From assembly GCA_947468275.1 (NCBI GenBank), contig CANIKO010000001.1, positions 248,001-312,000 of the forward strand: a stretch of 64,000 nucleotides of DNA, read 5' to 3'. The notes beneath the pieces were generated by a model that saw nothing but the letters and a program-made list of their open reading frames with translations, was not told where the DNA came from and searched no databases. How positions within the stretch are numbered: position 1 is the first letter of the stretch; each line of letters opens with the position of its first letter. The stretch is from Bacteroidota bacterium (GTDB taxonomy: Bacteria > Bacteroidota > Bacteroidia > NS11-12g > UBA9320). Positions 5,134 to 5,982 of the stretch are shown one piece after another. The position numbers were made by a program, and so were the translations under genes.

Positions 5134-5586
5134 ATGTCGGGTACATTTTCACAAATCTATATTCAACTCGTATTTGCTGTTAAGGGTAGAAATTGTTTAA
5201 TAAGCAATTTATGGGAAGAAGAATTATATAAATACATTACAGGAATTGTTAGAAATAAAGAGCAAAAAATGCTAGCTATAAATGGAATGCCTGACCATGT
5301 CCATTTATTTATCGGTATGAAACCTTCTTGTTGCTTATCTGATCTGGTTAGAGAAATAAAAAAGTCATCAAATGATTTTATAAATGAAAAAAAGTTTACA
5401 AATTTTAAGTTTCAATGACAGGAGGGATACGGTGCATTTTCATACAGTCATTCTAATTTAGATAACGTTATAAAATATTTAATGAATCAAAAGGAGCACC
5501 ATAAACGTAAAAGTTTTAAAGATGAATATTTGGAATTTTTGCAAAAATTTGAAATTGAATTTAAGGATGAATATTTATTTAAATAG
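5134..5586 (+). pseudogene. IS200-like/RAYT transposase with an internal stop
   Basis: A Y1-type HUH transposase of 150 codons. The HUH motif is present (DHVHLF, His55 and His57). Codon 95 is TGA at 5416-5418. The same frame continues with QEGYGAFSYS, where relatives have WQEGYGAFSYS, so TGG (Trp) to TGA is the likely mutation. The candidate catalytic tyrosine (Tyr115 in VIKYLMNQKEHH) and the C-terminal helix lie after the stop, so the truncated product should be inactive. Three units of a hairpin repeat follow immediately, as expected for a REP-associated transposase. Confidence 0.85.
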
Positions 5587-5603: not shown

Positions 5604-5982
5604 AATTCAAAGGATTCTGATGTTTATGTCATAACATTTTTGAAATTATCATGCGACCCCTTCGGGGTCGAAGACTAAATTGTCAGCTGTTATTATAAAC
5701 ATTTAATCCCTTCGGGATTATTAAACGCCGAAAAGAATCCATAGGATTCAAATGTTTATAGAAACAATAGTTTCTCAAAATATTCGACCCCGAAGGGGTC
5801 GAACAGCCGTATATCATTTTTTGCAATAAACATAAAATCCCTTCGGGATTTAGAATTAACGGAAGGAATCCGAAGGATTCTAAATGTTAGTAACATAATA
5901 ATCGCAGATTACATTCGACCCCTTCGGGGTCGCACAATCCAAATATTTCAAATTTCTATAAACATAAAATCCCTTTAGGATT
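5604..5982. repeat. Three tandem 131-bp three-hairpin units (REP/REPIN-like)
   Basis: Hairpin A is GAATCCnnnGGATTC (half-site 5612-5617, then 5735-5749, 5866-5880). Hairpin B is CGACCCC-nnn-GGGGTCG (5654-5670, 5785-5801, 5916-5932). Hairpin C is AATCCCttcGGGATT (5705-5719, 5836-5850, 5968-5982). B repeats exactly every 131 bases, and A and C every 131-132, while most spacer sequence has diverged. Each unit is itself an imperfect palindrome: ATGTTTATA follows A and TATAAACAT precedes C. The middle B hairpin has loop GAA where the outer two have TTC. I see no gene in 5587-6027. Confidence 0.85.

Follow-up and report, generated by a model that had tools for sequence, protein, structure and literature searches.

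Several features of the system described here are known from other Y1 transposases. ISDra2 and IS608 encode TnpA proteins that bind single-stranded DNA hairpins, with guide bases determining where they cut (PMC6006769), and their family, IS200/IS605, has the Y1/HUH catalytic type, subterminal hairpins and the lack of an obvious target duplication in common with our system. REPs and REPINs, together with their class 2 enzyme (RAYT or TnpAREP), resemble it in that palindromic hairpin units lie between genes and close to a Y1 gene, form mirror pairs, have hairpins of a transposase-specific class, carry a short fixed tag by the hairpin and occur as dispersed copies. TIRYTs and TIRtrons are Y1 genes between inverted repeats, some of which are self-complementary and repeated in the genome (PMC3733652). 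Structured repeats with copies elsewhere have also been found, by inspection, for the subclass 2.6 TnpAY1 of Bacteroidetes (PMC6006769). Subclass 1.2 TnpAY1 was described by Quentin (2018) as having the motif Y---Q--HH, the HUH motif DH[IV]H, the W motif WQ and a length of about 148 amino acids. It occurs mainly in Bacteroidetes and Cyanobacteria, with few copies per genome, without a listed REP and generally without the typical terminal structures of IS200 (Quentin 2018).

The array that we analyzed lies in a stretch of 64,000 nucleotides from a Bacteroidota bacterium (the window). Three tandem units at 5604-5982, each mirror-symmetric about a CGACCCC/GGGGTCG hairpin, adjoin a broken transposase gene. 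We consider it likely that this array consists of non-autonomous, REPIN- or MITE-like mobile units clustered in tandem, which belong to the adjacent dead subclass 1.2 transposase and were mobilized as single-stranded DNA. The features are as follows.

5134..5586, + strand: transposase gene, pseudogene of 150 codons, assigned from its motifs to subclass 1.2 Y1 (IS200-like, HUH)
5416..5418, + strand: in-frame TGA at codon 95, in place of a Trp that is invariant in aligned homologues
5604..5719, no strand: unit 1, in the order decayed left hairpin, ATGTTTATG motif, centre hairpin CGACCCC-TTC-GGGGTCG (5654-5670), TTATAAACAT motif, right hairpin AATCCC-TTC-GGGATT (5705-5719); covariance-model module matches at 5604-5668 on + (24.3 bits) and 5656-5718 on - (49.0 bits)
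5735..5850, no strand: unit 2, with left hairpin GAATCC-ATA-GGATTC (5735-5749), ATGTTTATAG, centre hairpin CGACCCC-GAA-GGGGTCG (5785-5801), AATAAACAT, right hairpin (5836-5850); module matches at 5736-5799 on + (56.2 bits) and 5787-5849 on - (42.7 bits)
5866..5982, no strand: unit 3, with left hairpin GAATCC-GAA-GGATTC (5866-5880), decayed motif, centre hairpin (5916-5932), CTATAAACAT, right hairpin AATCCCTTTAGGATT (5968-5982); module matches at 5867-5930 on + (23.7 bits) and 5918-5981 on - (47.5 bits)

The original prediction, made from this DNA alone, described three units with a fixed order of hairpins and a period of 131-132 bp, and the coordinates bear this out. The central hairpins are spaced 131 and 131 bp apart (5654-5670, 5785-5801 and 5916-5932), and the right outer hairpins AATCCC/GGGATT (5705, 5836 and 5968) 131 and 132 bp. 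Left outer hairpins GAATCC/GGATTC begin at 5735 and 5866, with a degenerate third at about 5604. Each unit also carries the mirrored word pair ATGTTTATA/TATAAACAT. The spacers between units have changed, as had been claimed, being 29-50% identical; in the central hairpin, 14-17 of 17 positions are identical. Folded as single-stranded DNA, unit 2 has a predicted energy of -26.5 kcal/mol compared to -9.4 kcal/mol for shuffles (z = -6.7). An Rfam search returned chance matches only, all under the gathering scores.

The mirror symmetry and the three hairpins per unit were thus described correctly, yet the basic element is smaller. When the 64-kb window is searched with a covariance model whose training set contained other species only, exactly six modules come out, every one within the array (E = 2.6e-13 to 6.9e-5). 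Units 1 and 3 have a low-scoring or partly decayed left hairpin, and one right hairpin has likewise decayed in part. Because the six matches form three inverted pairs, each with the central hairpin in common, the three-hairpin unit consists of two inverted two-hairpin modules fused at one hairpin. Neighbouring units are separated by only about 15-18 nt.

The adjacent gene is indeed dead, as predicted: a single TGA interrupts the otherwise open frame 5134-5586. It falls on the W codon of the W motif, (W)Q, where intact homologues have WQ. The HUH motif is DHVH and the tyrosine motif YLMNQKEHH (i.e., Y-x-x-x-Q-x-x-HH); together with the length of 150 codons, these agree with the published description of subclass 1.2 and lead us to assign the gene to it. 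The protein matches Pfam Y1_Tnp (2.5e-25) and, above the cut-off, NCBIfam transpos_IS200, and its structural relatives in the PDB are ISDra2 TnpA (2xm3/2xma) and IS608 TnpA (2a6m). The further claim that it is RAYT-like does not stand. We rejected a class 2 RAYT identity on the NCBIfam REP_Tyr_transpos score (27-29 bits, the cut-off being 80) and on the motif, which is Y---Q rather than Y---NP. In a sister genome (G005) an intact homologue, 93% identical, occupies the same place, and in another relative (G006) the homologue at that place carries a TAG stop.

The window's own genome (G000) holds three divergent subclass 1.2 copies. Two of them are intact, 59% (L009/L051, C9:104745-105185) and 50% (L008/L056, C1:166150-166596) identical to the window gene, and each has its own hairpin family: ACCCC/GGGGT with ATGATTATAG for the first, GCCCC/GGGGC plus GTCGC/GCGAC with GGTAG in front for the second.

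What the units have in common with those of other species is the module rather than the period. The building block is a triloop hairpin, 6 nt, the word TTTNTAG, about 26 nt and a second hairpin, with hairpin centres about 51 nt apart. Our flank survey covered the best 80 subclass 1.2 loci, drawn from named genomes; they are mostly from Bacteroidota, plus Ignavibacteria. Triloop hairpins with GC-rich stems of 5 or more occur there at 4.84 per kb within 250 bp of the genes and at about 0.2 per kb beyond 1.25 kb, a difference of about 20-fold. At least two hairpins lie within 600 bp at 88% of 67 loci, compared to 9% of control points. Gaps between successive hairpins measure 46-56 nt in 124 of 238 cases, mostly 47-54 nt.

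TTTNTAG starts invariantly 6 nt past the 5-bp core in all 40 modules examined, from 26 loci. A count that started from the word itself, without selecting on stems, took in 273 TTTNTAG words lying no more than 900 bp from a subclass 1.2 gene. In 96 of them a perfect hairpin core stands upstream at an offset of exactly 6 nt; every other offset gives 0-2 of 273, and words far from the genes 13 of 648. Tandem arrays with a period of at least 40 adjoin 27 of 83 genes and 1 of 108 background segments. Their periods beside relatives include 51-53, 102, 158, 199, 214, 228, 236 and 317, many of them close to multiples of 51-53. The idea that structure and distance matter holds for two conserved features, a step of 47-54 nt between hairpins and a 6-nt distance from hairpin to TTTNTAG. 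The 131-bp period, which ranges from about 50 to more than 300 bp in relatives, is local, and we rejected it as a conserved feature.

Two single loci illustrate the variation. Upstream of a gene in a related genome (G013 C224, L042/L112, 71-740) an array with the same centre hairpin has a period of 214 bp, not 131. A search of plasmids gave three records. One of them, a complete Bernardetia plasmid (NZ_CP147018, L260 2800-3000), has four GTTGC/GCAAC hairpins upstream of its subclass 1.2 tnpA. By eye these read GTTGC-AGC-GCAAC, 6 nt, TTTGTAG, plus the mirror, with the same offset and an unrelated stem. This copy lies outside the module set, and its GC-poorer stems were missed by the hairpin filter.

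Our results also show that modules and transposase occur together. In an evenly drawn sample of 148 Bacteroidota genomes, modules were found in 35 of 41 genomes with a strong homologue (85%) and in 7 of 79 without any detected homologue (9%, or about one in ten). Within the order, 24 of 108 genomes have both, 9 modules only, 11 the gene only and 64 neither (Fisher p = 7e-9); since related genomes are not independent, p-values are guides only. The link between hairpins and transposase that the original prediction assumed is thereby strengthened: hairpins spread everywhere with no such link, which would have spoken against it, were looked for, and the outcome favours the link. Modules flank most of the subclass 1.2 genes examined in Bacteroidota, and for these genes the reported absence of REP or terminal structures does not hold. 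In the literature searched, which included few subscription papers and no bioRxiv preprints, no such module was described for subclass 1.2.

The hairpin sequence class follows the transposase tree, on which three classes require 4 changes compared to 33.8 with shuffled labels. The stems also covary, a check that had been proposed at the outset. Among units of the genus chosen by the centre hairpin alone, the outer stem is 94% paired, with 49 double changes compared to 16 in shuffled and 2-15 in slid partners. A covariation count from another alignment (A2) was discarded as circular, because its members had been picked for perfect stems.

Copies of the elements are also found far from the array. 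The window's own genome contains at least 28-32 module matches (match counts per genome are lower bounds) compared to its 3 subclass 1.2 genes. The central hairpin recurs there at four further places, in three of the four with mirrored outer hairpins on both sides. Among nine related genomes it is present in G000, G003, G005, G006 and G013, which have a close homologue, and in G008, close to a 46% homologue; G002, G004 and G007 lack it. Centre hairpins number 7-8 and 2 where the enzyme is dead (G000 and G006) and 5 and 4 where it is intact (G005 and G003), four genomes being too few for a comparison. The syntenic array has three units in G000, four in G005 and one in G006, and unit-specific spacers are still recognizable across the orthologous arrays. 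The inverted GAA loop noticed in the middle unit, in place of TTC, is real, and it is inherited, because units 1 and 2 of G005 carry the same loop.

Some of these copies lack a counterpart in sister genomes. At one site of the window's genome (C4) a gene-less two-hairpin insert of 120 bp is missing from G005 and G006, and at the empty site in G006 the aligned flanks meet at adjacent bases. A second gene-less 120-bp insert (C20) is missing from two loci in G006. Neither insert shows an obvious target duplication, and two insertion sites are too few to define a target word. In the single clean insertion, C4, the element extends 24 and 28 nt beyond its hairpins. The ends of the C20 insert are different, the junctions of other empty sites have diverged, and the gaps of about 15-18 nt between array units are shorter than the C4 ends predict. 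No clean junction was obtained for the C2 insert, C11 or C7:113018, and C15 and C7:170486 have no two-sided ortholog in G003, G005 or G006. Beside the C2 unit, about 450 bp (L004, ~1655-2099) recur at several other sites in G000, G005 and G006 at 65-74% identity.

If the array is a cluster of mobile units, its parts could be explained as follows. The recognition module would be the pair of triloop hairpins at a distance of about 51 nt, the first of them followed on its 3' side, after 6 nt, by TTTNTAG. A unit would consist of two inverted modules with a common central hairpin, so that it would offer the same substrate on either strand once single-stranded. By analogy with ISDra2 and IS608 TnpA, the hairpin pair may be the binding site, occupied by a transposase dimer on the lagging-strand template, and TTTNTAG may be the cleavage or guide word, with the cut position set by it or by a guide motif. 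The unit would move as single-stranded DNA without target duplication, and tandem units could arise by unequal recombination or when a unit inserts beside one already present. Copy number is usually low, which leaves room for a contribution from selection or co-inheritance.

One could also argue that the hairpins are terminal recognition ends and regulatory flanks of the gene's own IS200-like element, and that repeated or aborted insertions of this full-length element, rather than independently mobile units, left their ends piled up in the array. Some genes do have modules on both sides (e.g., L158, at -77/-25 and +21/+71). One site (C18, L216) occurs in three states that suggest gene loss by recombination or excision between modules: it is empty in G006 (L240, C20), in G005 (C7, L055/L244) has direct module copies of 59 bp on either side of a transposase gene, and keeps a solo module in the window's genome. 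Nevertheless, most modules genome-wide lie away from any subclass 1.2 gene, the C4 and C20 inserts contain none, and hairpins are mostly one-sided in the window's clade, which makes this explanation unlikely.

It is very improbable that the hairpins act as transcription terminators or protect mRNA and are maintained by selection on host gene expression. In favour of this, their stems are stable, and all 11 dispersed elements inspected are intergenic, some between convergent genes. However, the hairpin is followed on its 3' side by the fixed word NNNATGTTTATAG and no T-run. Terminators need no partner hairpin at 51 nt, do not track the transposase tree and do not gather within 500 bp of a single gene family. 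Tandem duplication does occur, units 1/2 and 3/4 of G005 being near duplicates. That a chance duplication of one palindrome, with stems homogenized by recombination and no transposase link, produced the array is nevertheless hardly credible: independent stems differ in sequence yet pair, the geometry is common to different species, and the association of modules with the transposase across genomes already contradicts it.

We therefore return to mobile units of the transposase and to how they differ from described systems. As in REP systems, the palindromes are dispersed, multicopy and, where inspected, intergenic. In contrast to these systems, the enzyme belongs to class 1 (subclass 1.2), the hairpin pair is about 51 nt apart, tandem arrays stand beside the gene and copies number tens, not hundreds. 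REPs have a GTAG/GTGG 5' foot, whereas the tag here is TTTNTAG and lies on the 3' side, 6 nt away from the hairpin; read on the other strand it is a 5' CTANAAA. The window units have CTATAAACAT on the 5' side. GGTAG does precede the GCCCC-family stems at C1:166150, and some hairpin families may differ in their 5' tag. The original prediction was thus right that the unit is unlike the usual REPIN pair. The system works like REPIN/RAYT and is not a member, because enzyme class, tag and module differ.

Compared to IS200/IS605, several hairpins stand on each side, mirrored or in tandem, gene-less units outnumber genes, and a genome has few, mutually divergent subclass 1.2 genes (PMC6006769). Of the described TIRYTs, 20 of 26 belong to subclass 2.1 (PMC6006769), and many TIRs carry a GGGGWSAS motif rather than the hairpin-6-TTTNTAG module. 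Subclass 2.6, with its published atypical secondary structures, is set apart as another subclass (Y-x-x-x-NP).

The hairpin modules are new for subclass 1.2 relative to the earlier survey, which had no REP there (Quentin 2018), and they provide a proposed substrate for a little-studied subclass across Bacteroidota, together with a grammar that can be measured and a covariance model. As the hairpin class varies from one transposase clade to another, the recognition code can be tested directly. The system would be a further case of coevolution between an HUH enzyme and palindromes, outside the RAYT/REPIN lineage that dominates such work. We see roughly even chances that subclass 1.2 forms a separate REP-like single-stranded DNA system of Bacteroidota, with paired hairpins at a 51-nt step plus TTTNTAG, mobile gene-less mirror units and tandem arrays that serve as a donor nursery. 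The same genome also encodes two class-2-like Y1 proteins with open frames of 186 aa (L011, C7:111054; L012, C20:9250), whose flanks carry recurring CGAGTT-AAA-AACTCG hairpins, a separate repeat family.
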